Part shown: piece by piece, positions 11,026 to 57,006 of the stretch
How positions within the stretch are numbered: the stretch's first letter is position 1
How the letters are laid out: each line of letters starts with the position of its first letter
From: Watersipora subatra
Lineage: Eukaryota > Bryozoa > Gymnolaemata > Cheilostomatida > Watersiporidae
Reading direction: 5' to 3'
Assembly: GCF_963576615.1 (NCBI RefSeq)
Contig: NC_088709.1
Location: forward strand, 22,825,243 to 22,889,242
Length of the DNA stretch: 64,000 nucleotides
Position numbers and translations under genes: made by a program
The notes under the pieces: model-generated
What the model was told of the DNA's origin: nothing
Seen by the model: the letters and a program-made list of their open reading frames with translations, nothing else
Databases searched by the model: none

Positions 11026-14000
11026 ATGCCTCGAGATATTAATCATGGCAGCCTACTCAAGCTACTATTACTAATGTCACTGATCACTCTCAGCGATGCT
11101 TTCAACTCCACAACATCAGCTAATGACACTGACAGTTGCAAGTTCTCCTGGAAACTTCTAGGGGTTACGATTGGCATCTGTTTAGGAGTGATTGTAGGCG
11201 CCATCTTACTGTTTTTCCTTTTGTTATGTGAGTATTCTAAAATATCAATAGAAGGTCTCTTTCTTGATAGATATTATTGTTTAAATAAAGTAAAGCCAAA
11301 TAAATGTAAACGAACAATGTTGTGTGATAGACAAGTTTTCTGTATACAACCATGTGACAGATTGCATTAGCAAATAGTCAATAGAGATATCGACTAATAG
11401 ATCTATCATCCATTAAAACCTCTACCCATGTTTTTATAAATCACAAAACTTGTGATCAATAGAGCTATCAAACAATAGAATAATCAATCAAGTAAACTCT
11501 TACTAATGCTAGAAACTGATGCTGGAAACCGATGCTGGAAACCAATGCTAGAAACCGATGCTTTTCATTGTGGCTATGGCCTGGTTTCACACACAGACGG
11601 AATGCGCAGAGAAAGCAAAATAGTTAGTTGTGTTTGTACCTCTCATTACCGGTAGAGACCTAAACGTATTTCTACAAGTGATGGTTTTACGATTGGGTCA
11701 CACATATTTCTGATAACTATCTTTTTAACATGGAGAATGAGGGTCTGCGTTCTCTTTTAACTACGAAACTGACATTACCTTTAGCAGCAGGTTTCACAGA
11801 ACTAAAAAAAATAAAAAAGGCTTTCGATTGGTGAATGCATTGATTCTGGAGCAGAACTTTTGCCTGAAACCCCTATCAAAGAAACTCTAGCTTCTCTATC
11901 ATTCACTTATCTTTCAACCCGTCTATCTCATGCAGCATCCATAATCGAGTTTGTTTCTTACAGTAAGCTGTTGGATGCTCCATTTTTGATTTAAGTTGAC
12001 TACTTGTCATATTTTGCAGCCTTAAATCATATCCGATTCATTTATAGATTTTTTTAATAAATATGGCAAATGTCTGACACTTTCTTACTATACTAGCACA
12101 CCATGCTCTACCATACCACCAGACCTTGGGCAACAAGGACAGCCGAACAAGTGAAATTCTTCCAAATGCATTTTGCGCAGCAAATTTAGACCCTATTGGT
12201 TCAACGGTGTTAGTCTGAGACAATGGTAAATTCTGAAACTGAGCTTACTTTGGGCAGAAAAATCTTGCTTTGACATTGCATAAACTATGTTTTTTGTAGC
12301 TAGCAGATTGAAAGGGTAGCGGAAACTGGAGAATATTAAAGAGTTGATATCCCTCGTGTTGTTAGTGTTTCACACTAACTATTTACTACCAGATTTTCAT
12401 ATTGCAGTCATTTTTCTCTGAATTGCAGGCATCTTAAAGATAATCCCTAGTTTGTCAGACTTCATCAACTTTTTGTAGTTTCTTGATTATACACCACATT
12501 GAAAATCTATATTAACCTCGATATCAGCTGTTATTGATTTTTAATTTTTAAATTTCTGCCAGGTCCCATGTATATGTTCAAACTAACCAAAACTTGAATC
12601 TTGAGTTCTCCTTATCATTTAGGTTGCTGTGGGTTTGCCTGTCAAGGTATTAGAAAGGGCTCGTATGCTGCAGGATATCAAAGTCTTGGAGGCGTGGAAT
12701 CAGGTTCATGTTTTTCTTGCTGTCAGTCAACAGGTAATCATACCTCAAAGGCAGCATGTAACATGAAATTTGAATATACAGTGTAGTATAATTTATGAGT
12801 TTAAATTATACATTGGCATCTACTTTGTATCCATACACTGTATAATTCATACTTTGTGTACTGGGTATATGTTAGATATTATGAATTTTCTACTAATTCC
12901 TTTCTTAAGACAGTATATATTAGATATAACACAACTTTATACAACATGTATTAGATACTACACAATGTTATACAACATGTTTTAAATAATATACAGTTTC
13001 ACACAGCTTGTATTAGAAATTGTGCAACTTAATACATGGATTAGATATTATACAACCTAATAAAACTTGTATCTGAGATTATGCAACTCCATGCAACTTA
13101 TACAATATGTACTAGATATTATACAACGTTATACAACATGTATTAGACATTATACAGCTTTTTACAATGTGTATTAGATATTTTACAACTATATATAACA
13201 TGTATTTTAAATCTTTATACAACTTGTCTTAGAAAATATACAACTTTACACAACATGTATTAGACATTATACAGCTTTTTACAATGTGTATTAGATATTT
13301 TACAACTATATATAACATGTATTTTAAATCTTTATACAACTTGTCTTAGAAAATATACAACTTTACACAACATGTATTAGACATTATACAGCTTTTTACA
13401 ATGTGTATTAGATATTATACAACTTTATATAACATGTATTTTATAACTTTATACAACTTGTATTGGAAAATATACAACTTTATACAACAGGTATTAAGTA
13501 ATTTAAAACATATTACGACAGTATATTGCATTGTATTTAAAGCCAGTTTATGAAGAAAGTACCAAAGAATCGGTACCGCACAGTATAATCTGTATTTATA
13601 GTATAACCTGTAAAATTACCAATAAAATCTGCAAAATTTATTTACATGCGTCTTCATACATATTCATACTTATACGTACATATACATACACATACATACA
13701 TATATATATATTATATACATATATATATATTTATATGCATATATATATAAATATATATATTTATATAATATATATATTTGCTGATATGCATATTTATCCA
13801 TTAATATTTTGTTATCGTTATATTTCGTTATTTCGTTGTGTATATGTGCGTCTGTTAGTCTGCGTAAAACACACCTTTTGGCTGATTTTAATCCATCATG
13901 TTCCATGCCTCCTGGCAGGGTACAAAATTATTTAGTTTCAAAGATAGGCTGGTTTCTGAGTACCAGCCTATTAAATACCAATATTTGATTAAAATACTTT

Positions 14001-15125
14001 TGGCAACTTGGAGCTTTAACAATGTGCTATTAGAGTGTTCCTAGCTGCAAATTTGGCAACAATTTTTGTTTTTATTTGGGGTTGTATGTCAGGCATTTAG
14101 TATTTCAATTTAGCTTTTTAATTTTACTAGATTTTGCTAATGCAGTCGCAAAGATAAATTGGTAATTGTTTACCCATGCGTTTTTAATAATATGCAAATT
14201 TGGCTCACAAAATGGTATGACCTATACATAACCTTGAAGATGAACTTGCACAAAATATTAGTAGATTTTATTAGGATGTATCGTTATTTTTCTGTCGTTT
14301 GTGATTGTTTTTGATGTTTGAGGTGATCTGATTGCCAGGGTGTTTCCAGATTAAAATAGACGAAACATTAATACATCTAATACATCAACTAGATTAAGGT
14401 TGAAGTGTTCAGATAAGAATAACTTGCGCAATGATGTCACTAGTTACAAGAGTTGCTATTGTTGACATACGTTATTCCATTAAAGTTACAGAGTTGCCCG
14501 TCTCCATTCTGTCGTTCTCTTTGCGAATATAGACTTCATAATTTAATTTTTGCTGGGTCTGAGCATTTTAGCCGCGATCGAGCTATGTCAATCTCAATCC
14601 TGCAACATCCTGACAGTTCAATTACTCAAACATACCAAAATACTGATAGTTTTTTATAAAATCTTTCAAGCTTTCGTGCGAGTTCATATTTAATCATGCC
14701 TCTGGTGTCCATAGCTGTTCGGGTTTTAGTCAATAAAAATGGTTATAATTAATTTGCTTTGTAACATCTTATGTTTTTTCTCCAGTTCTTATACACAAAT
14801 TGCAAAATAATTTTAGATAAATGGCACCAAAGCTGCTTTGAGCTTAGGTATTTGACAGATAATTAAAACTCAATTACACAAGTTTACAATAGTCATACAC
14901 ATTTCAGCTCTTAGATTCTAAAAGAAATGATTAATTTTTTTTTACTGCTGGTAAATGCTTCAAATTTCAGCTCATACATCTTTGCCTGGTGTTTTAGGCC
15001 AGGGCGGACAATGCAAAGTAATTTGCATCATAATCCCCATTGTATGGATAATTTTGGTTGCTATCTTTATCACTGTGATGCTGACTGGTGCTGGCTTACA
15101 GGAGTTATGCGAGAAAGAAAGATAA
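11026..15125 (+). CDS. Gene 1A: small cysteine-rich two-membrane-segment protein, three coding exons
   Basis: Coding exons are 11026-11227, 12623-12733 and 14998-15125, giving 146 residues. Borders are TTTGCAG|GATG, TTAT|GTGAGT, ATTTAG|GTTG, ACAG|GTAATC and TTTTAG|GCCAG. Both introns are phase 1, and copy B uses the same borders. The protein has a leader rich in Leu (about 8-25), sequons N27-S-T and N33-D-T, a Gly-rich membrane segment (44-67), a cysteine-rich link starting CCCGFAC (68-110; CC pair at 100-101), a second membrane segment (112-134) and a short tail ending QELCEKER. With the glycosylated part outside, the Cys-rich link would face the cytosol and could be acylated or bind metal. 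If it is luminal, disulfides are likely. I do not recognise the family. Intron 2 holds a minisatellite. Splicing is inferred from conserved borders in two paralogues. Confidence 0.75.
11510..11566 (+). repeat. Short tandem GATGCTGGAAACC repeat in intron 1 of gene 1A
   Basis: About four units of GATGCTGGAAACC and variants (AATGCTAGAAACC). Not present at the equivalent place in copy B. Confidence 0.7.
13000..13505 (+). repeat. Minisatellite in intron 2 of gene 1A
   Basis: Degenerate units built on TTATACAACATGTATTAGA, with a higher-order unit of about 115 bases repeated around 13135-13440. Copy B has only a short version at 43990-44130, so it expanded in copy A. Confidence 0.85.
13670..13790. 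repeat. (TA)n/(CATA)n microsatellite
   Basis: TACATACATA followed by TATATA with TTTATATGCATA interruptions, in intron 2 of gene 1A. Open frames over it are artefacts. Confidence 0.9.
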
Positions 15126-15400: not shown

Positions 15401-16079
15401 TGTGAAAAAACTTTTATTAATTGGTTACTGATTTCAAAATCTTTTAATTTTTCACTTTGAATATAAAACTTCTTGACTAACCAAGTAATTGTAATTTTGA
15501 TAATAGTGTCAATATCTGCTCTTCTTAGGTAAATTTTGCAAATATAACAATTGATCAGTGTAAAACCCAACTGCTTGTTCATGCTAAGTTAGAAGTTAGA
15601 AGTTATTGCCATTGTCAAGTATTTTTGGAGCTAGAATGTGAAATTTACCAAAGTGCAAAATTTAAAGATTTCACAAAATATTTAAAGAAAAAACTGCAGT
15701 AAATATACTAGATATAAGACTTGAGTAGAAGGAACATCATGAGCAGCGTTAAGAATGTTCATCACATTATCATTTTTATATTATTAACTGATAAAAAATT
15801 GGCAGCAGATGAGAAAAACAGAAGTTCTACTTTTAATTAACTTTGTGAAGTGTTTCTTAGTTGAACCTTAATTCTTTGCATCTGAAAAAACTGCAATGAA
15901 TGCAAGTAATTAATGTACGTATACATGTAATTATACATATAATACAATACATATAATATAATTGTACGTATACATTTTTAGCATCTTTAATCATTAACAA
16001 AATGATGTGTGTCATTACCTGCCAAAAGAAAAAATAACAAAAAAACAACGAAATCCGAAATTATTGAGTGAGGTGAACA

Positions 16080-16345
16080 AACGTGTTTTAAACCGTGGTA
16101 ATCTAATAGTATTGCACAGGAGGCAGGATAGTGACTATAAATAAGTTAGTAATAAGATAGTAAATAAAATATAACCATTTACAAGTTGTTATAACAAACT
16201 CAATAAGTACAGGTACAAATGTGTTTAAAAGTTGGTAATCTAATAGTACCATCGAGGAGTCAGGATAGTGACTATGACTAGAATAGTAATATGATAGTAA
16301 ATAAAATATAACCATTTACAAGTTACTATAACAAACTCAATAAAT
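16080..16345 (+). repeat. Tandem duplication of a block of about 130 bp
   Basis: Two copies share GGTAATCTAATAGTA, AGGATAGTGACTAT and ATATAACCATTTACAAGTT. Copy B has one copy only (48770-48895), so this is a local doubling in A. Confidence 0.85.
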
Positions 16346-16439
16346 ATATGTATGTTTATTCATTGCAGTACTCATAAACCTCTCCAGAAACCTGTTTTGT
16401 AATCAGAAAACTTGTGTGTTGTTGGATGTTGTGATTCTT

Positions 16440-18440
16440 ATGAAAGGCTTTTCTTATTTTCAATTCAAACTTTTTTTATCACTCTATTTGTTTTGAATTT
16501 GACTTTTATCAATGAGTAAGACAATTTCGAAAAAACACATCATGAAAACCATGGATGAAAGCTCTGTGTACACAATAGCTTGGCCAATCAAGGTGCAAAG
16601 CCCAGTTGGTAGGCAGTGAGCATTGTTTGGCTCACATAAAAGAATTACCACTGTAATTTAAAGGAAAAAGAAGAGAGACGCCTAACGACACATGGACTAC
16701 TCCAACCTTGACAGCAAGTCCTGCTTCAAGGTGGTCCTAAATGGATTAGTGATTTTAAATCACCAGATGTCAGCAGGTAGCTGATTCCATGCTTCAGAGG
16801 CTTGGTATGAAGGCTAACAATGCCTAGAGGATAAAGTAAATGCTGGAAGTGGTAGCTGGAAAAGGATTTATGAGTGAGGGTGAGTAGTTTTATAGAGCCA
16901 ACGACTGGTATAGTACAGGTTGGAGCAGTGTAACAAAAAGTCGGGTAGCTAAGTTTGTTTTTTATAGAATTCCACAAATACTTCTTAAAATTGGTGTAGC
17001 TAGTTTAGTAACCAAAACTGTTGCATAATTTACACTTTGCCACTGAATTTGTTATTAGCATAGCCTTAAAGCAGGATGTTAAGACATCATTCAGTTTTTT
17101 CAACAGCAAAAATGAATCCAAACCCAACATATTTTTCCTAAATCTGTGAAGAGTACAAAAGGTGAATTCAACTGTAGGTAACCAATAATACAAGGAATCT
17201 AAACACAGACTCATTACAACTACAGCAGCAAGCATAACGTACAACTGTTTGTATGTAGATTATGCTTAAGTTAACATCATGCAGGTTGTCTTTTAAAAAG
17301 ATCTGCAATGACCATAATAGTACTTTTATTAAAACAGTGCACATAGCCTAATTTCTAAGGAACAGCGGAGCTGGTATACCACTTATATTAAAACAGTGTG
17401 CATAGCCTAGTTCCTAAAGAACAGCAGAGCTGGTATACCACTTTTATTAAAACAGTGTGCATAGCCTAGTTCCTAAAGAACAAGAGAGCTGTATAGCACT
17501 TTTATTAAAACAGTGTGCATAGCCTAGTTCCTAAAGTACAGCAGAGCTGGTATACCACTTTTATTAAAACAGTGCACATAGCCTAGTTTCTAAAGAACAG
17601 CGGAGCTGGTATACCACTTATATTAAAACAGTGTGCATAGCCTAGTTCCTTAAGAACAGCAGAGCTGGTATACCACTTTTATTAAAACAGTGTGCATAGC
17701 CTAGTTCCAAAAGAACAGCAGAGCTGGTATACCACTTTTATTAAAACAGTGTGCATAGCCTAGTTCCTAAAGAACAGCAGAGCTGGTGTACCACTTTTAT
17801 TAAAACAGTGTGCATAGCCTAGTTCCTAAAGAACAGCAGAGTTGGTATACCACTTTTATTAAAACAGTGTGCATAGCCTAGTTCCTAAAGAACAGCAGAG
17901 CTGGTATACTATTTTATTAAAACAGTGCACATAGCCTAGTTCCTTAAGAATAGCAGAGTTTGTATGCTATCATTCTATTGCTCTCTATTCATTTATAAAA
18001 TTTCTATCTTTAAGGGGTTGGATGGAGGTGGATCACCATTCTAATGATATCTGCAGCAAAATCTGCAAACCCTATAATCTTACATATATTCTTAGCATTG
18101 TGCTTGTTAGCAAAGCAAGTTCTTAACAATAGCAGTTCAGTGAAAGATGATATGACCTTCAACTCTTCTGTAAATACAGCTCTTGAATAACAAATAAGCA
18201 AGAATTAAACACAATCAACATGCTTAGTAATTAAAATATCATATTTCTAAGCGTGTTCAGACTTGCCATTTTCCTGTTGTCATGGCAACTGCTTGCTGCA
18301 TAAATAGTATTTGAGCATTTCATTAGATATTCTTGTTATTCAATACGACACTTGAAGAAGAAAAGAAAACATTTATAGTTTTTGACCGAAACATAGAATG
18401 TTTGTGCTGCCAATTAGATTCTGCTATTTGGACATTAATT
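16440..18440 (-). repeat. LINE-like dispersed repeat inside duplicon A
   Basis: The minus strand carries, in order, a coding-like island reading YSRAVFTEELKVISSF...ANKHNAKNICK...GFADFA (18010-18201) and then a C-terminal island reading AWNQLPAD (about 16690-16810, broken by a stop). Both are followed by a shared 3' end. The equivalent is at 48950-50410, and a third copy in opposite orientation is at 1-1270. It was present before the duplication because both duplicons share it. It is interrupted by the minisatellite at 17321-17950. Confidence 0.55.
17321..17950 (+). repeat. 60-bp minisatellite, about 10 units
   Basis: Units are about 60 bases: TTTTATTAAAACAGTGTGC, then ATAGCCTAGTTCCTAAAGAA, then CAGCAGAGCTGGTATACCAC, with few differences between units. 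Copy B keeps a single diverged unit at about 49855-49920, so the array arose in copy A after duplication. Confidence 0.95.
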
Positions 18441-19080
18441 CATAATTGATAATATTTTGGCAAAAAGCAATTTAAATATATAGCCTTATCAATTGAGTTT
18501 AAAACTTTTGGATGACATTTAATACCATTTTATATAAACATTTCTGTCTTTTTTATTCTATTAATTGTTTTATGTTCTAGTTTGATTTGAACGTCATTGA
18601 CCAAGAATAGCAAAGTCTATAACTACAGTGTATCTACTTATCTATTTAGTTATTTCCTACCAATCTATCTATCTATCTATGTATCAATATGCATCATCAA
18701 TATAAATAGAGATAATCAAAATCATCACACCATTTTTTTATTCCCATAACTTATCAAACCTTTTACACGTACCATTGACAGACCTTGATACAGCACCATT
18801 TATGCTAACAGCTGCACCGGCTGAGCAAATAAATTTTGTAAAAGACTAAAATCTGCTTTTAGCAGCAAACAAAGGTGGTAACACTTTAACGATTTTGGTC
18901 TTTACTTGTGTGAATGTAATAAATTAACTGGTACGGATGTCAAAAGACAGACTCTTTTTCAACTTACAGTCTGTTTACAGAGTATCAGCATTTAAATATT
19001 AGGTATCTGCAAGAACTGCAAATACTTCTATTGAGAGTTTGTGTTAATATATAGGGCACATTAAAGTTTAATCATGCTTG
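18441..19080 (+). other. Conserved 5' flank of gene 2A, with stops in the frame open in B
   Basis: This aligns with 50410-51060. In copy B the frame at 50697-51038 stays open with LTAAPAEQIHLVKC. Here the matching frame is broken after LTAAPAEQINFVKD. It is more likely non-coding flank than an exon. A (CTAT)n tract lies near 18660. Confidence 0.4.
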
Positions 19081-19180
19081 CGTATCTCTGACCGCTTTTA
19101 TATTCTCCGACAGTTTTCTGACTTTCATATTGCTGTCAAAGCATTTGTTCGTCTGCTTACGTCAGAGAGAGGAGCAAACT
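19080..19180 (+). promoter_or_regulatory. Putative promoter and 5' UTR of gene 2A
   Basis: CTTTTATATTCTCCGACAG, with a TTTATATT TATA-like core about 80 bases upstream of the ATG, is nearly identical in copy B (about 51080-51164). The leader GAGAGAGGAGCAAACT immediately before the ATG is also identical. The conservation is seen; promoter function is inferred. Confidence 0.45.
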
Positions 19181-22100
19181 ATGAGGACCATGAGGAGTGT
19201 TTTTGTGGTAATATTGTTGTGTTTCCTTTTTCAACTTGACAAAAACTGTTCTTTACCTCGAGCAGACGATTCCTGCTCTTCAGAGGATAGACAATGCAAG
19301 GCCTTGAACACAGAAGGTAAAAAAATTATTTTTAAGTTTTTTTAGATGACACATATATAGTCATAAAAAACTGTACATACTCAGATGTTGCACTGGTATG
19401 AAGTATTAAACTGGGCAACGTCTATGAGCCCCCACATTTTTTGACAAGGAGTCACAGGTACTTGATGGTTAGGCTCATTCACTGCTCTTATTTTATTGGC
19501 TAACATATTTCTCATTCACCTCGTGATTACAATTTTAACATTTTTACTCAAGTATCAATAAATCGCAATTTTATTTTTATCTTTATTTTGACGTACTATA
19601 AAATAGTTATAACATTGAGGTAAGTTTTATATCACCTGCATGGATAATCCCACCCCTACACCAATACAGTAAGTGTGCTGTTTTATATCATCAGGAGGTG
19701 TATTCTACATCCTTATATTGATATTGTAAATAGGTTTGTACTGTTTTATACCTACAGGCATATTCTACACTACTATATTGATAGTATAAATAAGTGTACA
19801 CAGTCTTATATCTATTGAAGGAATATTCTACACCCATACACTGATATTTTCAATAATTGTACACAGTTTTATATCAGCTGTAGGTATATTTTACATCCAT
19901 ATATTATATTAATATTTTCAATAATTTTACACAGTTTTATATCAGCTGTAGGTATATTTTACACCCATATATTGATATTTTCAATAATTGTACACAGTTT
20001 TATATCACCTGTAGGTATATTTTACACCCATATATTGATATTTTCAATAATTTTACACAGTTTTATATCACCTGTAGGTATATTTTACACCCATATATTG
20101 ATATTGTAAATAAGTGTACACTGTTTTATATCAGCTGTAGGTATATTCGACATCCCTATACTGATATTGTAAATAAGTGTACACAGTTTTGTATCACGTG
20201 TAGGTATTTATCGCCTGGTGTAACAGTGGGGTAAATATAAACTAGCAACATGCCGCCTTAGGTGTGTCAGCAATAGAATGCTTGGTTTAGCAGTAAACCA
20301 ACATGATATGCTATTGGTTGATTTGTATATAGAAATTACTTCAAACCATTGTAGATGTGTTGCTAGTGACTACAGGTAGAGCATCTTCATACATATTATT
20401 TATATAAGACTGTTTGCTATCCGCGGTCTGAGTTGGTTTGGTGTAATCTTTGTAAAAACGTATTCCATGTCGTAAACCGACCAGAAGCCAACACCTATTT
20501 TGACCTTTCGGAGGAAACACAACTCCAACAAATTGTCATGTAGTGAACACATTTTAACTTGCTGTGCATAAAATGGCTGCCGTCTTCAAATATCAAAGAT
20601 AGGCTATTAATGATGTTTCCAAACAAACAGGTTGGAGTCTTTTGTAATAACTGGATATAGAGATTTCTAGATTTTCTAGAGGACTAAGCAAAAAGTGGCT
20701 CAGTAATGTTTTGCTAAGTAAAATGTCAGAATTTCTAGAGAAGCAAGTTATGGTATATTGTTTGTTACTTGTTTATTCACACCTCATATATTATATCTTT
20801 TACAAAAAATCTAATTTCTAACATTTGATATGTATAATCGGCTCGCCTTTGATATCAGGGATCTATGAAATTTTAATGAGCTCTCCACCTTTATTGACCA
20901 ACGTATCAATGTTTGTTAGTCATTCATTATCAATTACTAATACTTGGCCAGTCCTGAGAGACATGAGACATCGTCATGTGTAACAAGTAGTAAAGAAGTA
21001 AAAATTTCATCAACAACAATCAGCATTTTCTAATACTGCTGGATCACAAAATTGCACCACCACGTGCATCACAAAACCATGAGCATCTTAGGCCACATTT
21101 TCTATTGATTTTCTACATAACGAGCAAGCCAACAGTCGTTCAATATTTTCTCATCTTTAATTTTCCAAACGATCAAAACTTTTGCTTACTTAAAACAAAA
21201 ACATACTTCTGAAATATTGATTTTTTAAATTGGATACATATTATGATAGCTGTCTTGTGTGAAAACTACTTACATCAGGATTTGGTGTAACAATGCTTGA
21301 AAGCTTGATAGAAAGACATTTTGTTACCACGGTAGCGAAATTGGAAGTAGACAGTAGCAAAACACAAAAGGAAACTGGAAGATAAAACAAAAGTTTGTGT
21401 TTAACAATTTGATATGAAAAGTAGTAATATATAAGATAACAATCTGAGCAAGAGATGGGTTGACTCTGAATAAGCATACGCTATGGTGACTTATACAGGG
21501 GATCACAAAGGCTTTGAGGCGGATATGGTAGATTAGATCATTTGGAGTATTAGTGAAACAAGCAGGAAAAAATGAATAAATATACTGCGAAATGAAGGCA
21601 AAAACCTGAGAAGTTGACCTATTAGTTACCTATAAGTAGTAGTTTATAAATTCAGCTGTAGCCTATTGGTCTAAAAAAGCTTGACCCACAAACAACAGGT
21701 CGGGGTTCAATTTCCACAAAATGTTTCTGGTTAGGATATGAATAATATTCAAACTTAAATTGTTTTCTTAAACTGAGCATGTTCCCAGTCATAGAAGTTA
21801 TCTTGAGATTAGACTGAGACATATTCAGCCAAGACAGAGTCATTGTTTGTGCTGCAAGGCTCTTTAAAAATAAGCACTGCTTAGTTTGTTATCTGCTTGC
21901 AGTAAGCTAAAAATGCATCATACTCATCTTTGAGTGATCACACGCATGCACATTTGAAAGGTACAGCTTCTGTCCTTTGTTATATATAAAATTATTCCGA
22001 TAGCAAAACTGTAAAAGACTTCATCTGGATATAAGCTCTAAAAGGTTTAAGGTCAATCACATGCTGCTCATTGAAATTCTGAAAATGTTTTAGACTCGAC

Positions 22101-43500: not shown

Positions 43501-44209
43501 GATCATCTCTAACTTTTTAGGCTCCATCAACTTCTATAGTTTTTTGCTATACCACCCATGGACAATCTAGATTAATCCTGATATCACCTGTTATTAAACT
43601 TTACTTTCTTACTTTTTTGTCAAGTCACACGTGAACATGAATTTTTGATCAAAGTAAAACTTAAATCTTGGATTCTCTTTATAATTTAGGTTGCTGTGGG
43701 TTTGCCTGTCGAGGTATTAGAAAGGGCTCGTGTGCTGCCGGATGTCAAAGTAATATTGGAGATGTGGAATCAGGTTCCTGTTTTGCTTGCTGTCAGTCAA
43801 CAGGTAATTATACCTCAAAGGCAACATGTAACAAGAAATGTGCATATACAGTTTAGTATATTTTACATTGTATACCTCTGTATTTATATTATATATTGGC
43901 ATTCATTTTGCATCCGTACACTGTATAATGGATATTTCGTGTACTGGGCATATGTTAAATAATATGAATTTTCTACTGATTATTTCCTTAAGACGGAATT
44001 TATTAGATGTAATACAACTTTATACAACATGTGTATATTACATAATATACACCTTCATATAACTTGTATTTAATATTATATAAATTTATACAACATATAT
44101 TAGATATTATACAACTTTATATAACATTAAGTATAATGAGTTGTACTTAAAACCATTTTATGAAGTTAGAACAGTGGAATCTGTATTTTAATAGAATCCT
44201 ATATATACA

Positions 44210-44257
<48 letters not shown>

Positions 44258-44722
44258 TCATGCTACAGACAGTACTGTTTCGGCTATTGAAGCCTCATCA
44301 GTGCAGCTCAGAGCTTAGGCAAGGGACACGAATCCCATTACCAATGAGAGTTGACTTCCTGCCACGAAACAACTAAGTTGCCTCGCAGACTTTAAGAAAG
44401 TCAATGTGCTGGCACCAGAGTGCTCAAATCACAAAGGTGATGAGCTTTGCACAAAGGCTAATAGTGCCGCACCTCTCACAGAGTGCTCAACCAAACCGAA
44501 GTAAGGGAGCATATACTCATGCTACAGACAGTACTGTTTCGGCTATTGAAGCCTCATCAGTGCAGCTCAGAGCTTAGGCAAGGGACACAAATCCCATTAC
44601 CAATGAGAGTTGACTTCCTGCCACGAAACAACTAAGTTGCCTCGCAGACTTTAAGAAAGTCAATGTGCTGGCACCAGAGTGCTCAAATCACAAAGGTGAT
44701 GAGCTTTGCACAAAGCTCATCA

Positions 44723-44771
<49 letters not shown>

Positions 44772-44833
44772 ATGAGATATATATATGGGATGATGAGGCT
44801 TCAATAGCCGAAACAGTACTGTCTGTAGCATGA

Positions 44834-44927
<94 letters not shown>

Positions 44928-47090
44928 ATATATATATGTATATATATATACATATATACATGTATATACTCTATATTTATCTAGATATCTATATATGTAT
45001 CTATTATTTTATGTATATAAATCTAATAGTTTGTGTGTATTTCGGTGTGTCTGGCTATAGCTATTAAAATATGTGAATGAAGAGTCCGTATCGCAAAAGA
45101 TTTAATCTTGGAACCTCCCATTTGCCAGGCAAATACTTTATTAAATATACTAAATACTTTACTGAAGGATTCATTGGGCAATCTATGTTGCTATGTGGGT
45201 CAAGATATACATGTATATACATATTTACATATAATATATTAGTATATAATATAACATTCATTATATAGTATATAATATAACATTCATTATATAGTATAAC
45301 TATATACTTAGCTGTATATAACTAACTATATATATAGCTGAGAAAAAGCCTTCTGTGCAGCTGGAATAAATTAGTAGAGAACTAAATGTAGATGTAAAAT
45401 AAATGGTAAGTATGAAAACTAGGAAATGTTGATGCAACGTGTACCTTTTGGTAGCGTATATAATCAGCACAACAATTACCAAATTCTGAATTGGAGATAA
45501 ACTATTAGCTTTAACGAAAAAAGATGAAGAAGCACCGCAATGCATATACTTATCTTCCAAAATATTTCTGAACAGGGGAATCATAACGCATGGACGTTAT
45601 GCTAAAATAATTAGCATGCACATGGGGTATGCGGCATATAAAATCATCCCTGATCAATATTCCGTTCTAGCTCAGTGGTAGCGCGTCCTGATAGGAAACT
45701 TGTTGATGCATTCATTGTGATTTCAAATCCATTGGAAAGCGGAATTTTAATATCAAGATTTTTATAGCTATAGCTGGAATGCAGACAGACATACGACATA
45801 CTTTGAGAAATACATATATCTATGTATATATGTATGTTTATATATATTTATAAATCTTATTATTTATATATTTGAATATATATATAATAAGGAAAAAATA
45901 ATAATAAAATTTTAGGCAGAGAGTAAATTTTCAGTAAAAGCACTAGAAAGCTGGTGCTAAAAACCTGCAAAATCTGCATATACATGAACATGTACATGTA
46001 TATATAAAATAAATATATACGGTATATATTTTAATATATAGGCTATAAGAGTGCTCGTAGCTGCAAATTTGGTAGCAATTCTTGTTTTTATTCAGATGTG
46101 TATGTTGGGCATTTAGTATTCCAGTTTAGCTTTTTAGTTTTGCGTTCACGAAGATAAATTAGTAATTGTTCACTCATGCAATTTTTGAGAATAAGTGAAT
46201 TTGGCTCACAAAATGGTATAACCTAAACATAACCTTAAAGATGAGCTTATATAACATATTAGTAGATTTTGTCAAAAATTATTGTTGTTTTCCCATCATT
46301 TGAGATTATTTTTTATGTTTCAGGTGATCTGATTGCCAGGGTGTTTCCAGATTAATATCGATGAAACATTATTATATCTAATACATCAACTAGATTGAGA
46401 TTAAAGTGTTCAGAAGAAAATAAATTGTGAAATGATGTCATTAGTTGCTATTCTTGACATCGGTTATTCCGTTAGAGTAGCAGTGTTACCCGTCTCTATT
46501 CGGTTGTAAACTTGCAATTATAAACGTCTCTTTGCTGTTTGGTCTGCGTGCTTTAGTCGTGATCAAGTTATTCTGATGTTAACCTTGCAACATCCTGACA
46601 GTTCGACCACCCAAACATACCAAAATACTGATAGTTTCTTATAGAAACTTTCAAGATTTTGTCAAGTTTATTTTAATCACACCTCTGGTGTTCATACCTC
46701 TTTTGGTTTTGGTCAATAAAAATTGAGAAAAATAAATTCCTCTGTAACATTTTTTCCAGTTTTTATACACACTTCAAAATAAAATTTAAATAAATGACAC
46801 CAATGCTTCTTGAAGATTAAGTATTTGACAGATACTTATAAATTGATTACACAAGCTTGTAATAGCCGTACACATTTCAGCGCTTAGTGTCTAAAAGAGA
46901 TAATTTACTGCAGGTAAATACTTCCCATTTTAGCTTGTACATTTTTTCTGTTGTTTTAGGTCAGGGAGGAAAATGCAAGGTTTGCATCATAATCCTAATC
47001 CCCGTCATATGGATAATTTTGGTTGTTATCTTTATACATGTGATGTTCACTGGTGTTGGCTTACAGGAGTTATGTAAGAATGAAGGATAA
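40565..47090 (+). CDS. Gene 1B: small cysteine-rich two-membrane-segment protein, three coding exons
   Basis: Coding exons are 40565-40766, 43690-43803 and 46960-47090, giving 148 residues. Borders match gene 1A (TTAT|GTGAGT, AATTTAG|GTTG, ACAG|GTAATT, TTTTAG|GTCAG) with phase-1 introns. It has the same layout: leader (about 8-25), sequons at 27 and 33, membrane segment 44-67, CCCGFAC link, and a second membrane segment from about 116. In the link, residues 82 and 86 are Cys where gene 1A has Tyr, which adds two cysteines. Exons 2 and 3 each have one extra codon relative to A, and no frame is broken, so it is probably still functional. Upstream, the TATA and first-exon match seen in copy A is lost, so its expression may differ. 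Confidence 0.75.
41100..43050. other. Copy B-specific block within intron 1 of gene 1B
   Basis: The flanks align with gene 1A intron 1 (about 11500 and 12040), but this 1.9 kb does not. It carries a repeated AGAGCTCACCCAAAGCCTAT (41163-41215), the exon-like frame at 42061-42249 and a reversed B-box tract near 42360 (GGGTCTCAAACTCTTGACA). Confidence 0.5.
42061..42249 (+). pseudogene. Exon-like ORF fragment, possible captured last exon
   Basis: A pyrimidine-rich acceptor ending TTTTTCAG precedes 62 open codons reading [60 protein letters not shown] and a stop, then AATAAATAATAC. The charged, helix-like composition and the use of CGC and CGG codons look like real protein and not AT-rich noise. 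I do not recognise the family. It lies in the B-only block, so it may be a transduced or retro-copied gene end. Confidence 0.3.
44218..45000. repeat. (TA)n with a 259-bp tandem and inverted hairpin repeat
   Basis: (TA)n is followed by a unit of about 259 bases starting CTCATGCTACAGACAGTACT (44256). A second, truncated copy starts at about 44515. Its end folds back at a palindrome (GGTGATGAGCTTTG mirrored by CAAAGCTCATCACC, 44697-44727). After more TA, an inverted 50-base piece of the unit start appears (44787-44837), then a long TA run. A related diverged unit is at 63075-63285. Open frames here are artefacts. Confidence 0.9.
45035..45180 (-). repeat. SINE family 1 fragment (minus strand)
   Basis: GTGTGTCTGGCTATAGCTAT is the reverse of the family tail. 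The tRNA-like head is not clearly preserved. Confidence 0.5.
45655..45830 (+). repeat. tRNA-derived SINE, family 1
   Basis: A box GTTCTAGCTCAGTGGTAGCG and B box GTGATTTCAAATCC are followed by the tail TAGCTATAGCTGGAATGCAG and CTTTGAGAAATACATA. It lies in intron 2 of gene 1B and is absent from A. Confidence 0.75.
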
Positions 47091-47999: not shown

Positions 48000-48770
48000 C
48001 GCTACGGTTTTACCGGAAAACCCTTATCAATTATAGATGCTCGCTACTTTACAGTCACTTTTCAGTTCGGTTTCATCATCTAGTTGTAATCTGATCCTGT
48101 GACTCATACTTCCTGTCAAATGGTGGGAACAATTTCTGAAGTATTTTTCAACTATCACAGGTGGCCAACAGGCTCTTCATGTTTATCAGAAGACGATATG
48201 CACTCCTTCTTGACTAACCAAGTACATAATTGCAATTTTGAAAATAGCGTCAAAGGCTGCCCCTCTAGTGCAAATACAATAAATATAATAATTGATAAGT
48301 GTAAAACCTAACTGCATTCTTATGCTAAGTTAGAAGTGATTGTCATTGTCAAATAGGTTTGGTGCTAAAATGTGAAAGTAAAAAAATTCCCAATTTAAAG
48401 ATTCCACAAGATATTTAATGAAAACACTGCAGTAAATATACTTGATATAAGACTGGAGTAGAAGGAACATAATGAACAGCATTGAGGATGATCATTATGT
48501 CATCATTTTTATATTATTAACTGATCAACAGTTGTAAGCGGCTGTAAAAAAACAGAAGTTCTATTTTTAAAGAATTTCTTGTAATGCTTCATAGTTGAAC
48601 CTTAATTCTTTGCATCTAAAAGAGACGGCAATGAATGCAACTAATTAATATATGTACAGTATAACTTTTATTAGCATCGGTAATCCTTAACAAGGATGTG
48701 TTTTGTTACATGCCAAAAGGAAAAAATAAGGAAAAGACAGAAATCAGGAGTTATTGAGTGAGTTGAATAA
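48000..48770. other. Conserved flank of duplicon B, no gene seen
   Basis: 48205-48660 aligns with 15475-15920 in copy A (shared AACTTCTTGACTAACCAAGTA-type tract and GAGTAGAAGGAACAT). A piece of this flank is also duplicated at about 47400-47600. No coding support. Confidence 0.4.
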
Positions 48771-48949
48771 ATGTGTTTAGAAAGTTAGTAATCTAATAGT
48801 ATTGTGGAGGAGTCAGAATAGTGAATATATATAAAATAGTAATATGACAGTAAATAAAATATAACCATTTACAAGTTGCTATAACAAACTCAATAATTAT
48901 GTTTATTCACTGTAGTACCCAAACCTGTTCAGAAATCTGTCCTGTAATC

Positions 48950-50410
48950 AGAAAACTCGTGTGTTGTTGGATGTTGTGAGTCTTATCAAAGGCATTTCTT
49001 ATTTTCAGTTTAAACTTTTTTATCACTCTATTGGTTTTGAATTGAATTTGACTTTTTTCATTGATTAAGACAATTTCGAAAAACATACTATGAAAACCAT
49101 TGATGGAAGCTCTGCGTACACAATAGCTTGGCTAATCAGGGTGCAGAGGCCAGTTGGTAGGCAGTTAGCATCGTGTGGCTCACATAGATAAAAATCCACT
49201 GTAAATTAAAGGAAAAAGACAGCTCAATGATGCACAGACTACTCCAACCTTGACAGCAAGCGCTGCTTCATTATCTTCTTAAATAGACTAGCGCTTTTGG
49301 CTTCTCGGGTGTCAGCAGGCAGCTGCTTCCATGCTTCTGAGGCTTGGTATGAATTTTGATGATGTCCTAATGCTGAAGTAGATATCACAAGTGGTAGCTG
49401 TTAAAGGATTTATGAGTGAGGGTGGGTGATTTTATAGAGCCAACAACTGGTATGGTACAGGTTGGAGCAGTGTAACAAAAAGTTGGGTAGCTAAGTTTGT
49501 TTTTTATAGAATTCCACGAATACTTCTTAAAATTGGTGTAGCTAGTTTAGTAACCAGAACTGTTGCATAATTTAAACTTTGCAACTGAATTTGTTATTAG
49601 CATAACCTTAAAGTAAGATGTTAAGAAATCATTCAGTTTTTGCAACAGCAAAAATTAAGCCAAACCCACCATATTTTTCCGAAATCTGGGAAGAGTGCAA
49701 GAGTTTAATTCAAATGTAGGTAACCAATAATGCAAGGAATCTAAACACAACCTCATCACAACTACAGCAGCTATCATAGTACAACTATTTGTAGATTAGG
49801 CTTAAGTTAACATCATGCCGGTTGTATTTAAAAAAATCTGCAATGACCATAATAGTACTTTTATTAAAGCAGGGCACATAGCCTACATAGTTCTTTAAGA
49901 ACAGCATAGCTGGTATGCTATCATTCTATTACTCTCTATTAATTTATCAAACTTCTATCTTTAAGGGGTTGGGTTGAGGTGGATCACCATTCTAATGATA
50001 TCTGTGGCAAAATCTGCAAATCCTATAATCTTACCTATATTCCTTGCAATATACTTGTTAGCAAAGCAAGTTCTTAAGATTAGCAGATTGATTAGCAGTT
50101 CTTAAGATTAGCAGCTGAGTGAAAGATGATATAACCTTCAACTTTTCTGTATATACAGCTCTTGAACAACAAATATACAAGAACTAAACACAATCGACAG
50201 GCTTAGTACTTAGCTTAGTATTTAAAATATCATGTTGCTGAACGAGTTTAGACTTGCCGTTTTCCTGTTGTCGTGGCAATTGATTGCTGTATAAATAGTA
50301 TTTGAGTATTTCACGAGATATTCTTGTTATTTGATATGACACTGAAAAGAAAAAAACCTGTTGCAGTTTTTGACCAAAACATGGAATGTTTGTGTTGTCA
50401 ATTACATTGT
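48950..50410 (-). repeat. LINE-like dispersed repeat inside duplicon B
   Basis: Equivalent of 16440-18440 without the 60-bp minisatellite expansion. The minus strand keeps the clearest C-terminal reading, YQASEAWKQLPADTREAKSA, then LFKKIMKQRLLSRLE and a stop (about 49255-49370), which resembles the end of non-LTR reverse transcriptase proteins. Confidence 0.6.
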
Positions 50411-50689
50411 GTTATTTGGACATTAATTCATAATTGATAATATTTTGGCAATGAGCGATTTGATTATATAAGTCTTATCAAATGAGTTGGAAACTTTTGG
50501 ATGACATCTAATACCAATTTATATAATTATTGCCAGGTATTTTTTATTTTATACTTTGTTTTGTGGTCTAATTTGCTTTGAACGCCATCAACCAGTGATA
50601 GCAAAGTTTATAACTATCTACTCTTCTATTTTCCTACCAATCAATTTATCTATCCATTTATCTATGTATCAATACGCATCATCGATATA

Positions 50690-51038
50690 AATATAGATGA
50701 GCATAATCATTACACCATTTGTGTCTTCCCGCAACCTATCAAACCTTTTAGACGTACCGCTGACAGGCATTGAGGCAGCACCACGTATGCTAACAGCTGC
50801 ACCGGCTGAGCAAATACATCTTGTAAAATGCGAAAATCTACTTTTAGAAGCAAACAAAGGTGGTAATACTTTAACGATTTTGGGTTTCACTTGTGTGAAT
50901 AAAGAAGTTAACTGGTATGGCTGTCAAAAGACAGGCTCTTTCTTAACTTACAGTTTCTTTACAGAGTATCATCATTCAAATATTGAATATCTGCAAAAAC
51001 TACAATTACTTCTATTGAGAGTTTGTGTTAATATATAG
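50690..51038 (+). other. Open frame upstream of gene 2B, doubtful
   Basis: The frame contains LTAAPAEQIHLVKCENLLLE and FTCVNKEVNWYGCQKTGSF. The matching sequence in copy A (18770-19050) has at least two stops. It ends just before the gene 2B promoter. It could be an upstream exon or neighbouring remnant kept only in B, or a chance frame. Confidence 0.2.
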
Positions 51039-51063
51039 GGCACATTAAAGTTTAATCATGCTT

Positions 51064-51164
51064 GCATTTCTCCGACAGCTTTTATATTCTCCGACAGTTT
51101 TCTGACTTTCAAATTGCTGCCTAGGCATTTGTTCGTCTGCTCACGCCAGAGAGAGGAGCAAACT
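51064..51164 (+). promoter_or_regulatory. Putative promoter and 5' UTR of gene 2B
   Basis: GCTTTTATATTCTCCGACAG and the leader GAGAGAGGAGCAAACT match copy A closely, better than nearby intergenic sequence does. Confidence 0.45.
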
Positions 51165-52239
51165 ATGAGGACCATGAGGAGCGTTTTTGTAGTAATATTG
51201 TTCTGTTTCTACTTTCAACTTGACAAAAAGTGTTCTTTCCTTCGAGCAGATGATTCCTGCTCTTTAGAAGATAGACAATGCAAGGCCTTGAACACAGAAG
51301 GTAAAAAAGTTATTCTTATGTTTTTTTAGATGACATGTATGTAGTCATAAGAGACTGCAAACTCGTAAGTTGCGCTGGTATGAAGTATTAAACTGGGCAG
51401 CTGCTATGAGTCATCCAAAATCTTTGACAAGGAATCACAGGTACTTGAGTGTTAGGCTCATTCGCTGTTCTTATTTTATTGGCTAATCATTTGCTCATTC
51501 GCCTCATGACTCCAATTTTTACATTTTTACTTAAGTACCAATAAATCTCAGTTTTCTTTTTATCTTTATTTTGACATACTAAAATAGTTATAACAATAAT
51601 GTTAGTTTTATATCACCTGCATGGATAATTCCACCTCTACATTGATACAGTAAATAAGTGTATTGTTTTATACCATCAGGAGGTGAATTTGACATCCTTA
51701 CCGTATATTGAAATTGTAAATAGTGGTACACAGTTTTATATTACCTACAGGCATATTCTACACCCCTATATTGATATTATAAATAAGTGTACACAGTTTT
51801 ATATCTATTGAAGGTATATTCTACACCCATACATTGATATTGTAAACAAGTGTATAGTTTTATATCAGCTGTAGGTATATTCTACACCCCTATACTGATA
51901 TTGTAAATAAGTGTACACAGATTTATATCACCTGTAGGCATTTATCACCTAGTGTATCAGTGGGGTAAATATAAACTAGCAACAAGCCGCCTTAGGTGTG
52001 TCAGCAGTAGACTGTATTGTTTAGCAGCGATATACAGAAGCATGACTCCTACCTCCACTAATCAGCCAGCAGTATATTCATGTTTTTATAATATTTCAAA
52101 ACTTCTATCATGGTAATTAAGGTAATATAACTTCCATAATCATAAGACAGTTTGTTATTAGTTACTATTTGAAATTGAATTAATAATTTTCATTTACAAT
52201 TATTCAGAGCTCGAATTTGCTTAGTAATATACATATATT

Positions 52240-53515: not shown

Positions 53516-53597
<82 letters not shown>

Positions 53598-56500
53598 CTA
53601 ATATGCTGGCAGTTTTTGCAACATGAGAGATTGTCATGTGTAATAACTATTCACGCTAATGACTATTGATGCTCACGATGAAGTTGTGATAGAGAATGTC
53701 TAACAATATCGCTCCGCATGAGCTTGCTGAGTGAGCTCTAGCGCATATTAGCGACACGCAGCGCGATATCGCACTAAATATTGCCAAGTGTGTTTGCACC
53801 TTAATACTGCTGGGTTATAAAATTACATCATCATTTGCATCACAAAACCATGAGCATCTCAGGCCACATTTTCTATTGATTTTCTACATAAAAAGAAAGT
53901 CATCCGTCATTTAATATGTTTCAGTCTCTTGTTTTGTAAAAAAAATCAATACTTTTGCTTACTTGGAACGAAGAAATTTTTCTGAAATATTGAATTTTAA
54001 AATTTGATACATACTATGATACTTTCTCTGCGTGAAAACTACTTGCATCAGCATTTGGTGCGACAATGCATGAAAGCCTGTTAACTGTGCTACAAAATGG
54101 AGGTAAAGACCTGAGAGATGGGCTCAGCTCGCTAGTAATTTAAAGGTTCGGCTGCAACTCTTTGGTTTGAAACACTCGACCTGCAAACAACATGTTGGGT
54201 TCAGTTCCAAAAAATGCCATCAGGGGGACCAAAATGACATCAGGGGGACCAAAATGACATCAGGGGGACCAAAATGACATCAGGGGGACCAAAATGACAT
54301 CCAACCTTAAACAGTTCTTTGCAACTAGGCATGTCCCAGTCATGAAAGTTACCTGGCCACTGGACTGAGACATGTCTAGCCAAAACAAAGTTATTGTTTG
54401 TACTAGAAAGCTCTCTAAAACTAAGCACAGTCTCTGCTTGCAATAAGCTAAACAGACATCATACTAATCATCGAGTGATTACATGAATGCACGAACACTT
54501 GGAAAGTACAGCCTCTGCCCTTCATTGTATAGAAAATTCCGCTAATAGCAAAACTGGAAAAGACTTCAGCTGATATGAGCTCCAAAACAAATTTAAAATC
54601 AATCACATGCTGCTCATTGAAAATCTTAAAATGTTTTGGACTTGACCAGATGAAACTGCAAACATATGTACAATCAATTCCTCTAATAGGTTTGACAAAT
54701 ATTCTAAGGTGCTGTTTATCTAAGCTCAACGGTTATGAATAGGTAGTAGTTTTAAATCTATCAGAATTGTGCAATAATTTAGTGATAATAATACATGTAT
54801 GCACTATAACAAGATCAGTGTACGTCCGTCTGTCTGAAACTACATTGACAGAGTGAAAAAATTGTTTTGCCCAGGTATTGAACTCATGCTGTCTGTTTTA
54901 CATACCGACCCACTAGCCACTACTCTACACAACCACCTTGCCACTTCAACAAATCATCATGAGCATTCTGATCGCTCATGACAATCTCTCACAGTGTACG
55001 AAACTGCTGTGCATGCTAGTGATAGCATAATAGCAATAATAATAGCAATAATAAAAATTTTATTATTAATAATAGCAATAACAATAATAATAATTTTATT
55101 ATTAATAATAGCATTAATAATAATAATAATTTTATTATTAATAATAGCATTAATAATAATAATAATTTTATTATTAATAATAGCATTAATAATAATGGGA
55201 ACAGATGGTAGAAACATGAGCTTGGAATTGAAGTAAATGCAAGAAGTACGTTGGTTTGATACAAAATCACTTCATGTAAGTTTGCAAATAACAATAGTGA
55301 ATGACATTTGACCTTAACCTTAATCAGTTTAATAAACTTCCAAATATTTGCTTGTAAAGCAAAACATACTTATTTGGAGGTTTTTGAAGCCTCAAACCTG
55401 TAACATATAATAACTTCTTTCAGCAATCAAAACACTTTTTCCATTTTCATTATTTAAATACATAATCAATACAACATCTTAATGTCTAGCGCTGTTGAAA
55501 CAGTTTTGAGAGTAAACGAGCTTTTGATTTAATATACAAAAAATGCTTCATCTTATGTTCTGAAGCCTAGGCTTGAAATATCCTTTAAGTGAGGATTTTG
55601 ACCAATTTGTAGTTTCCAAAGTTGAGATTATTTAGCCAAGACCAAACTTTTTCAACATCCCTTGTTTTCTTCTGATTGTTGAACTTTTAGAGGTTAATGT
55701 AAAAGGACTAACATACATATCTGAGTGTCAACTTGTAATAAACACATGATAACAAGTGGTCATTAGAACTGCTAATTATTTTTAATTCAAAAATTTGAGG
55801 GGTTTATTTGTTTTAAAATAAAATTCTTAACATGTTTCTGTCTCCCAATATATCACAACTGATATATTGAAAGTAACGACAACTTGCTAGTGGCCATGCA
55901 GTATATACTGCTTCGGCCTTTTCATTAGTGCTTTCTCACTTGAAGTCTATTTCCGTTTGTCAACAGAGCTGAAGAGAAGTAAACGAGATACTTCTGGCAG
56001 CAAGCGTTCTTCGGTTAAAGTTCAGGTGAAGTTTGTCTCTGACAGCAGGTCAGCTAATGCATCGGCAGTGACAACATCAGCAGCTACGTCGACTACGCAT
56101 ACCAAAACAACAACAACTGCAACAACAGAAACTTTACCACTTCCAACAATAACTACTCTCGACTCTACAACAAATACGCCATTATCTGCTACAACACCTA
56201 CTTCGGCGACAGCCACGCCTGTCTCAACAACAACCACACCATTGCCTACCACTGCAAATGCCTCAACAACAACTACATTTGCTCCAACAACAATTACCCT
56301 TGACCAAAGAACAACTACACTTGAGCAAACAACAACTACACTTGCTCTAACAACAACTGCACTTGCTCCAACAACAACTACACTTGTTCCAACAACGACT
56401 ACACTTGCTCCAACAACAACTACACTTGCTCCAACAACGACTACACTTGCTCCAACAACAACTACACTTGCTCCAGCAACAACTACACTTGCTCCAACTA

Positions 56501-57006
56501 CAACTACACTTGCTCCAACAACAACTACACTTGCTCCGACAACTACACTTGCTCCAACAACGACTACACTTGCTCCAACAACAACTACACTTGCTCCAAC
56601 AACAACTACACTTGCTCCAACAACCACTACACTTGCTGCAGCAACAACTACACTTGCTCTGACAACAACTACATTTGCTCCAACAACAACTACGCCTGCT
56701 CCGACAACAACTACATTTGCTCCAACAACAACCACACTTGTTCCAACAACAACTACACTTGCTCTAACAACAACTACACTTGCTCCAACAACAACTACTC
56801 TTGCTCCAACAACAACTACATTTGCTCCAACAACAACTACACTTGCTCCAACAACAACTACACTTGCTCCAACAACAACTACACTTGCTCCAACAACAAC
56901 TACACCGTTGCCCACTACAACCGCTGCCCCAACAACAGTAAGCTCGTATACGACAGTAGTAACTACACTACCTGCCAAAAACGGTAATGGTAATAATAAA
57001 GGATAG
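51165..57006 (+). CDS. Gene 2B: secreted mucin-like Thr/Pro-repeat protein, two coding exons
   Basis: Coding exons are 51165-51300 and 55967-57006 (donor GAAG|GTAAAA, acceptor TGTCAACAG|AGCTG, phase 1), giving 391 residues. It has a signal peptide, Cys at 23, 32 and 39, the basic stretch KRSKR (furin-type cleavage after residue 52), a Ser/Thr-rich linker, then about 30 repeats of the TTTLAPT type (about 150-360) and an Asn/Gly tail NGNNKG. Repeats are more uniform than in gene 2A, which uses LVPS/FVPS variants in a 12-unit pattern. The N22 sequon of copy A is Lys here. AATAAA at 57485-57490 lies in the same relative place as in A. The long minus-strand frame (VVVVGAS) and the LLQQQ frame are shadows. 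Splicing is inferred. Confidence 0.78.
51600..51955 (+). repeat. Minisatellite of about 62 bp in intron 1 of gene 2B
   Basis: About five units with ACAGTTTTATATCACCTGTA, ATTCTACACCCCTATA and GATATTGTAAATAAGTGT. Shorter than the copy A array. Confidence 0.9.
52250..52320. repeat. (TA)n microsatellite
   Basis: About 65 bases of TA at the left edge of the Helitron-like insertion. Confidence 0.97.
52320..53458 (+). mobile_element. Non-autonomous Helitron-like element, with a reversed SINE-type head
   Basis: The right end reads TTATTACCTGGACAACACCGGG, a short hairpin, then TAGTACAGCTAG followed by T. This fits the hairpin plus CTRR terminus of Helitrons. The left part holds TATGTCCAGCTATAGCTATT, the reverse of the SINE family 1 tail. 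Fragments of the same sequence occur at 9300-9540, 31450-31690, 35400-35560 and, reversed, 39790-39990. (TA)n lies on both sides. It is absent from copy A intron 1. No Rep/helicase frame is present. The class is inferred from the terminus alone. Confidence 0.45.
53459..53600. repeat. (TA)n/(CATA)n microsatellite
   Basis: About 140 bases immediately after the Helitron-like terminus. Ile/Tyr frames are artefacts. Confidence 0.97.
54140..54430 (+). repeat. tRNA-derived SINE, family 2, with internal 20-bp tandem
   Basis: Shared with copy A at 21650-21880 (GGGTTCAGTTCC, CCCAGTCATGAAAGTTA). Inside it, CATCAGGGGGACCAAAATGA is repeated four times without change at 54218-54300. The array is absent from the copy A insertion and so is recent. 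Confidence 0.75.
54790..54960 (-). repeat. tRNA-derived SINE, family 3 (minus strand)
   Basis: Starts AACAAGATCAGTGTACGTCC. CAGGTATTGAACTCATGCTG is a reversed B box, and CCACTAGCCACTACTCTACAC the reversed A-box region, giving a complete tRNA-like end. Shared with copy A. Confidence 0.7.
54995..55236 (+). other. Candidate alternative terminal exon of gene 2B encoding a hydrophobic segment
   Basis: After AATCTCTCACAG the phase-1 frame is open for 79 codons: [11 protein letters not shown], a long Ile/Leu/Ala run, then [13 protein letters not shown] and a stop. Most of the hydrophobic run is an imperfect 33-36-base repeat of AATAATTTTATTATTAATAA type (55045-55195), so it could be a microsatellite artefact. 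Copy A shows a similar plan from a different acceptor. Confidence 0.22.

Follow-up and report, generated by a model that had tools for sequence, protein, structure and literature searches.

A putative cysteine-rich Ifi-6-16 gene beside a mucin-like gene in a locally duplicated block of Watersipora subatra

Introduction

Why should a gene for a small cysteine-rich membrane protein and a gene for a secreted-looking threonine-rich protein stand side by side twice within one stretch of a bryozoan genome? We addressed this question in a 64,000-nucleotide stretch of Watersipora subatra (the window; C2:22825243-22889242 of genome assembly G000, which comprises 783.7 Mb in 239 contigs, among them C1, C2, C6 and C8), where the two genes, here termed A and B, occur as the pairs A1-B1 and A2-B2. 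An earlier sequence-only reading had placed neither gene in a family that it could name, and had taken their conservation side by side as a sign of cooperation. We consider a different account probable, namely that segmental duplication and inversion have locally expanded a 23-26 kb two-gene block, in which gene A is a divergent member of the Ifi-6-16 family and gene B encodes a secreted mucin-like protein.

Gene models and the duplicated block

A blastn comparison of the window with itself (rows shorter than 80 bases left out) showed a tandem duplication on the forward strand, with duplicon 1 at 2556-25215, an alignable block with gaps that holds A1 and B1, and duplicon 2 at 32304-57928, which holds A2 and B2. 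Identity between the duplicons was 73-85% including gaps, in noncoding and coding DNA alike, with the blocks at 15469-16209 and 16217-17377 lying outside the identity chain. Because noncoding DNA is also alignable, the duplicated unit is the whole block and not the exons only.

Gene A was modelled with three exons and gene B with two, all on the forward strand. A1 exon 1 (11026-11227, ending at a GTGAGT donor) encodes a signal-peptide-like N-terminus and a first transmembrane segment (TM1) with the pattern GxxxGxxxGxxxG, the topology being read from hydropathy only; exon 2 (12623-12733, phase 1-1), supported by the gene model, Pfam and the genome search, encodes the Ifi-6-16 core with 6 cysteines; and exon 3 (14998-15125) encodes a second segment (TM2), the tail and the stop codon. 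The A2 exons lie at 40565-40766, 43690-43803 (the core, with 8 cysteines and the same three lines of support) and 46960-47090. B1 exon 1 (19181-19316) encodes a signal-peptide-like N-terminus and a cysteine-containing propeptide, while exon 2 (23341-24278) encodes an RSKR site, a KVQVKF segment and Thr-Pro repeats of 21 bp or 7 amino acids; the B2 exons lie at 51165-51300 and 55967-57006. All six introns of A1, A2, B1 and B2 are GT-AG and phase 1, and the spliced models contain no internal stops and give proteins of 146 (A1), 148 (A2), 357 (B1) and 391 (B2) amino acids. The sequence-only reading was borne out in that all coding exons, intron phases and splice sites survived the tandem duplication. 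It had also described introns and intergenic DNA as gaining and losing kilobases. Intron lengths in copies 1 and 2 are 1395 and 2923 bases for A intron 1, 2264 and 3156 for A intron 2, and 4024 and 4666 for the intron of gene B; the A-to-B gap is nearly constant (4055 bases in duplicon 1 and 4074 in duplicon 2).

A search of the genome DNA showed the window to be half of a cluster of four A loci and three B loci within ~0.22 Mb, which we compared by blast with self rows and rows below 150 bases left out. Copy 3 is inverted, its A-B pair running on the minus strand from C2:22740027 to 22722800; A3 is intact, and B3 exits the Thr-Pro reading within the repeat to end in a Gln/Leu-rich frame, which could reflect decay or a fault of the assembly. 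Copy 4 consists of A exons 1 and 2 only (C2:22666413-22664642), and the 24 kb beyond them yielded no A exon 3 and no B. Lengths of A1-A3 differ by whole codons only, with splice sites kept.

Selective constraint

Constraint was assessed with the repeat codons of B excluded from both the exon difference count and the ratio of nonsynonymous to synonymous substitution rates (dN/dS). The rate of differences at aligned exon positions was ~0.6 times that at aligned intron positions in gene A (A1 vs. A2, 50/437 vs. 442/2216 positions, P = 1.5e-5) and in the non-repeat part of gene B (B1 vs. B2, 29/276 vs. 312/1812, P = 0.004). For A1-A2, dN/dS was 0.58 (bootstrap 0.34-0.99; 2.3% of the bootstraps reached 1 or more), and codons 1-97 of B1-B2 gave 0.31 (bootstrap 0.13-0.73); values near 1 in both genes, which had been named in advance as telling against the pair, were not observed. 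Across all copies, estimates were 0.31-0.75 for A pairs and 0.31-0.32 for B pairs, and point estimates fell below 1 in 9/9 pairs. The open frame through the B repeat is weak coding evidence, as several frames of the 21-bp repeat are free of stops, and coding support for gene B therefore comes from the non-repeat part, where differences were distributed 6/5/18 over the three codon positions (P = 0.0014). Both genes look real and are under detectable constraint.

Gene A and the Ifi-6-16 family

PF06140 (Ifi-6-16; ISG12/IFI27/IFI6) was the sole Pfam family above its cut-off for the gene A protein, with scores of 33.7 bits for A2 (E = 3.5e-8) and 29.8 bits for A1 (E = 5.8e-7) against a cut-off of 29.1. 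Three of the four gene A copies exceeded this cut-off when scored as genomic stretches, one of them only with its in-frame neighbours, and a 42-amino-acid segment, mostly exon 2, scored 30.8 bits by itself. Controls gave no PF06140 match at E ≤ 10 (0/10 segment-wise shuffles, 0/5 loop shuffles and 0/1 reversal). Eleven places were scored in the PF06140 search of the genome, a number that is a lower bound for large families; four were exon 2 of A1-A4, four lay on C8 (apparently two loci, each present twice) and three on C1. Among 14 control genomes searched in the same way, one gave a signal, which was under the cut-off.

We then compared gene A exon 2 with five of the seven remaining places, namely the three on C1 and one representative per C8 pair, each taken as a single exon. 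AG/GT borders, a length of 114 nt and phase 1-1 were found in 5/5, with the reading frame as in gene A, whose exon 2 is likewise phase 1-1, with 114 nt in two copies (A2, A4) and 111 nt in the other two (A1, A3). Four of the five scored above the PF06140 cut-off, and C1:57871184 fell just under it (28.4). Ungapped identities out of 39 residues were 19, 20, 17, 16 and 13 for A2 and 16, 18, 14, 13 and 13 for A4; the identity of A2 with each exon, including the lowest (13/39, C1:57871184), was reached by 0/20,000 shuffles. Likeness, length and phase of these exons place gene A in the family at the level of the core exon. On its predicted sequence, gene A is a divergent, cysteine-rich Ifi-6-16 (ISG12/IFI27/IFI6) member at that level, with 6-8 cysteines in the core exon vs. 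0-1 in the other family exons, and the claim that it belongs to no nameable family is not supported. When a profile of A1 and A2 was run against 177,635 distinct PDB sequences, one chain appeared at E ≤ 10, IFI27-like protein 1 (2loq, E = 0.26). NCBIfam gave no match for A1, and no gene A relatives were confirmed in the collections of viral contigs and genome contigs. The two doubled Ifi-6-16 exons on C8 lie at C8:32190393-32206411 and 32599243-32616421, ~410 kb apart and with equal scores, and reflect either a segmental duplication or an assembly duplicate.

Hydropathy of gene A shows a hydrophobic N-terminus and hydrophobic segments within residues 39-79 and 106-144. The TM1 glycine zipper GxxxGxxxGxxxG is present in A1, A2 and A4, with a frequency of ~0.001 in shuffles for a pattern that was chosen after it had been seen, and the loop cysteines adjoining the first membrane segment are invariant in 4/4 copies. 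Gene A shares with the Ifi-6-16/FAM14/ISG12 family (PF06140; IFI6, IFI27, IFI27L1) the core motif GF..xGI..GS.AA..QS..G.V..GS.....QS.G, a small hydrophobic protein (146-148 amino acids in gene A) and the glycine zipper, and it shares with the other loci of this genome a phase 1-1 exon, theirs being of equal length or one codon longer. It differs from the family in the 6-8 cysteines and charged residues of its core, where the others have mostly alanines, and in combining a polar loop with a signal-peptide-like start and two hydrophobic segments; relative to IFI27L1 it is ~5 residues shorter in the middle by profile alignment.

Published excerpts on the family offer points of comparison. Glycine zippers are reported in porcine ISG12A (PMC5578005), and the excerpt on one oyster transcriptome gives 25 IFI27 sequences (PMC4892480). 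Shrimp LvIFI6-16, another invertebrate protein, is described as having the order signal peptide, transmembrane segment and Ifi-6-16 domain, as in gene A; reported for it are induction by poly I:C and by virus, a higher virus load after silencing, participation in defence against viruses and an effect on transcripts of caspases (PMC9144789). By this description alone it is unlike gene A in that the same excerpt mentions neither a cysteine-rich core nor a mucin-like neighbour. Two further papers did not bear on gene A: the 'FAM' numbers in the excerpt of PMC3124438 are names of repeats, and in the excerpted main text of PMC8917759 IFI27 is present merely as an abbreviation.

Gene B and its relatives

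The gene B protein has a hydrophobic N-terminus, cysteines at 14, 23, 32 and 39, the RSKR site, the KVQVKF segment and the 7-amino-acid Thr-Pro repeats. Beyond residue 39 there is no cysteine in B1 or B2, and after RSKR the two proteins contain 42.3 and 46.6% threonine and 11.5 and 10.6% proline, respectively. On general knowledge and not by a predictor, we take RSKR to be a furin site and the N-terminus to be a signal peptide. Pfam returned no match at E ≤ 10 for the whole B1 protein, including the domains of gel-forming mucins (VWD, cystine-knot), and the first 97 amino acids of B2 gave no match in NCBIfam and no significant match in PDB. Low-scoring candidates were set aside: Yopt for the B2 N-terminus (Pfam E = 0.13, 12.8 bits against a cut-off of 25.5) was judged to be chance, as were two PDB matches of the same region at E = 0.28 each, one to yopT and one to a subunit of acetolactate synthase, and IBB for the first 165 residues of B3 (E = 0.092) was under its cut-off. 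Gene B thus has no match above cut-off in these searches, in line with the earlier reading, and appears to encode a secreted-looking, threonine-rich, mucin-like protein of no named family. With secreted mucin-like Thr/Pro-repeat proteins it has in common a signal-peptide-like start, long 7-amino-acid Thr-Pro repeats and a repeat free of cysteine, and it departs from them in an N-terminal part that has no database match above cut-off; among the sequences searched, its N-terminal cysteine propeptide and RxKR site recur in paralogues from the same contig.

Searching the genome with the N-terminal part of gene B gave 13 places at E ≤ 1, six of which were the exons of B1-B3. At C2:23338299-23342025 and 23353527-23357586, two more exon pairs showed 51-55% identity and retained an RNKR site and the KVQVKF segment; their exon 1 was found at E = 1.4e-4 and their exon 2 weakly (E = 0.07 and 0.016). 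An exon-2 remnant with an early stop lies at C2:22558161, and two places on C6 look like chance.

Linkage of genes A and B

Order, orientation and a spacing of ~4-6 kb are kept in three A-B pairs, and all pairs observed lie within copies of one duplicated block that also holds noncoding DNA. No B-like match was found at the Ifi-6-16 loci on C1 and C8. Conversely, no convincing A was found at the two further B relatives in 30.3 kb in and to the left of them (with 2 kb of gaps in total), where a much diverged A could be missed; this search left out C2:23336001-23337800, 23352801-23353000 and everything to the right of 23358300, and applied no composition correction. The A-like matches that it returned were rejected: A2 with L031 (E = 0.012) is a valine run, exon 2 with L034 (E = 0.034) covers 8 residues (CCCGFACR/CCCCFCCR), exon 2 with L030 and L031 (E = 0.089) consists of cysteine runs with a stop, and A3 with L031 (E = 0.12), A3 with L030 (E = 0.51) and A2 with L034 (E = 0.55 and 0.73) are of low complexity or short. 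Copying of one block accounts for the linkage of A and B, and the Ifi-6-16 loci without B, together with the B relatives without a convincing A, count against a required partnership. A and B are most plausibly passengers on a single duplicated segment, and a two-gene system is not supported; nor was any such pair named among the literature matches listed, which were available as excerpts.

Other features of the block and the window

Within the block, the copies are more alike around B exon 1 and its upstream region (16217-19955 vs. 48769-51941) than on the gene A side, with 84-91% identity in 250-base bins from 17750 on vs. 73-88%; bins over B exon 2 and beyond range from 77 to 90%. The block at 16217-17377 is 84.7% identical with gaps, and the shift in identity occurs near a 137-bp repeat. 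Gene conversion or regulatory constraint are possible causes. Upstream of A2, duplicon 2 contains a LINE-like reverse transcriptase fragment (37653-38705; RVT_1 E = 2.8e-17 for 37653-38075), and at 44252-44890 there is a unit of ~205 bp (two tandem copies, 99% identical, and part of the unit in inverted orientation) next to AT runs; 63062-63275 holds related sequence. Other reading frames common to the duplicons, such as 4113-4333 (10/11/17 differences by position, 182 sites), had no trusted coding-like pattern, and reading on from A exon 1 into a retained intron gives a frame that is not the same in the two copies.

Outside the duplicons, positions 1-1294 hold an inverted, minus-strand orphan fragment of the B upstream region (70-76% identity to 16403-18461 and 48948-50471) with no B gene attached. 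We rejected it as a sign of a third B off the left edge of the window, because, in the 185 kb examined to its left, no B exon adjoins that edge and the nearest one is B3 (C2:22728195-22722800, minus strand). A 217-bp stretch, 97% identical between 27500-27716 and 58343-58559, lies beyond both duplicon ends and is probably a younger mobile element. A 1.7-kb minisatellite with a 15-bp unit (59184-60852) is open in several frames, including a minus-strand frame of 570 codons with no Pfam match at E ≤ 0.01, and 62157-62873 is a partial reading frame of a rhodopsin-type G-protein-coupled receptor (7tm_1 E = 2.5e-8). No Rfam families or tRNAs were found.

Discussion

Local expansion of one two-gene block, with gene A an Ifi-6-16 member and gene B mucin-like, would account for the locus as follows. 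Gene A would have a signal-peptide-like start and two hydrophobic helices, the first with the glycine zipper, joined by a polar cysteine-rich loop that the Ifi-6-16 core exon encodes; it would enter the endoplasmic reticulum and may oligomerise through the zipper, with the membrane-proximal cysteines perhaps holding or regulating it by acylation or redox. By analogy with its relatives, its likeliest role would be in organelle membranes during infection or cell-death responses. Gene B would be secreted, probably cleaved by furin after RSKR and O-glycosylated, and would add to an extracellular coat, so that its likeliest role is as a component of the surface coat or mucus. The two would stay together because they were copied together.

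Several observations weigh against this interpretation. Spliced A3 (25.1 bits) and partial A4 (20.5 bits) score under the PF06140 cut-off of 29.1, and hence the Pfam result does not settle membership by itself; in A1 and A3, exon 2 lacks one codon relative to the other family exons, and A3 has a serine at the last glycine of the zipper. The PDB match to 2loq is weak and is lost with a four-copy profile, single-sequence phmmer searches of A2 and of the 42-amino-acid segment against PDB gave 0 matches each, and TM2 and the tail of gene A have no convincing family match. Upper bounds of dN/dS for gene A exceed 1 in 3/6 pairs (1.03, 1.76 and 1.89), two of which involve the truncated A4; differences in gene A are spread 24/12/24 over the codon positions (P = 0.17), with no excess at the third, and between A1 and A2 all 9 differences in codons 1-42 are nonsynonymous, with 0 synonymous. 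Finally, the polar cysteine-rich loop, set against an alanine-rich core elsewhere, implies that function may differ.

In a possible but doubtful alternative, gene A has kept the Ifi-6-16 exon for a new job, as a palmitoylated protein forming a membrane hairpin in the secretory pathway or at the cell surface, and not in organelles or cell death. The signal-peptide-like N-terminus, the invariant cysteines of the polar loop beside the first membrane segment and the excess of core cysteines over other family exons would suit such a protein, but shrimp LvIFI6-16, in the excerpt describing it, combines a signal peptide and a transmembrane segment with an antiviral role and effects on caspase transcripts (PMC9144789). 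That A and B form a functional cassette, co-expressed and cooperating, for example in secretion of mucus or coat, and kept together by selection, appears unlikely. The shared order, orientation and spacing of the three pairs and the constraint on both genes are what this would predict, yet duplication of one block explains the linkage, B and A exon 3 are missing from copy 4, the reading frame shifts within the repeat of B3, and relatives of each gene occur elsewhere without a recognised partner. That side-by-side conservation signals cooperation, as had been suggested, is not supported. Slightly less probable is a decaying cluster of mostly pseudogenes, in which conservation reflects recent ancestry or gene conversion: truncated A4, the frame change in B3, the B remnant at C2:22558161, the greater likeness around B exon 1 and the missing third-position excess in A point that way, whereas the lower divergence of exons than introns, dN/dS estimates below 1 in every pair, whole-codon length differences among A1-A3 and the kept splice sites argue against decay. 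We give least credence to an immune-barrier cluster formed by remodelling of an ISG12 exon into a cysteine-rich membrane module and its union with a secreted mucin-like gene, both genes being co-induced and co-amplified as a paired cell-intrinsic and surface defence.

Under the favoured reading of local expansion, a gene that was nameless by eye proves to be an ISG12/Ifi-6-16 gene whose core exon has kept its length, to within a codon, and its phase while the alanine-rich core became cysteine-rich. Unusual within this known family is the cysteine content of the core exon. Genes of the ISG12 type have been studied in antiviral defence and cell death. If the cluster is only a local expansion, its value is one of annotation; a cysteine-rich branch beside a mucin-like gene with changing repeats would offer a concrete place to test a change of role of this family in invertebrates.

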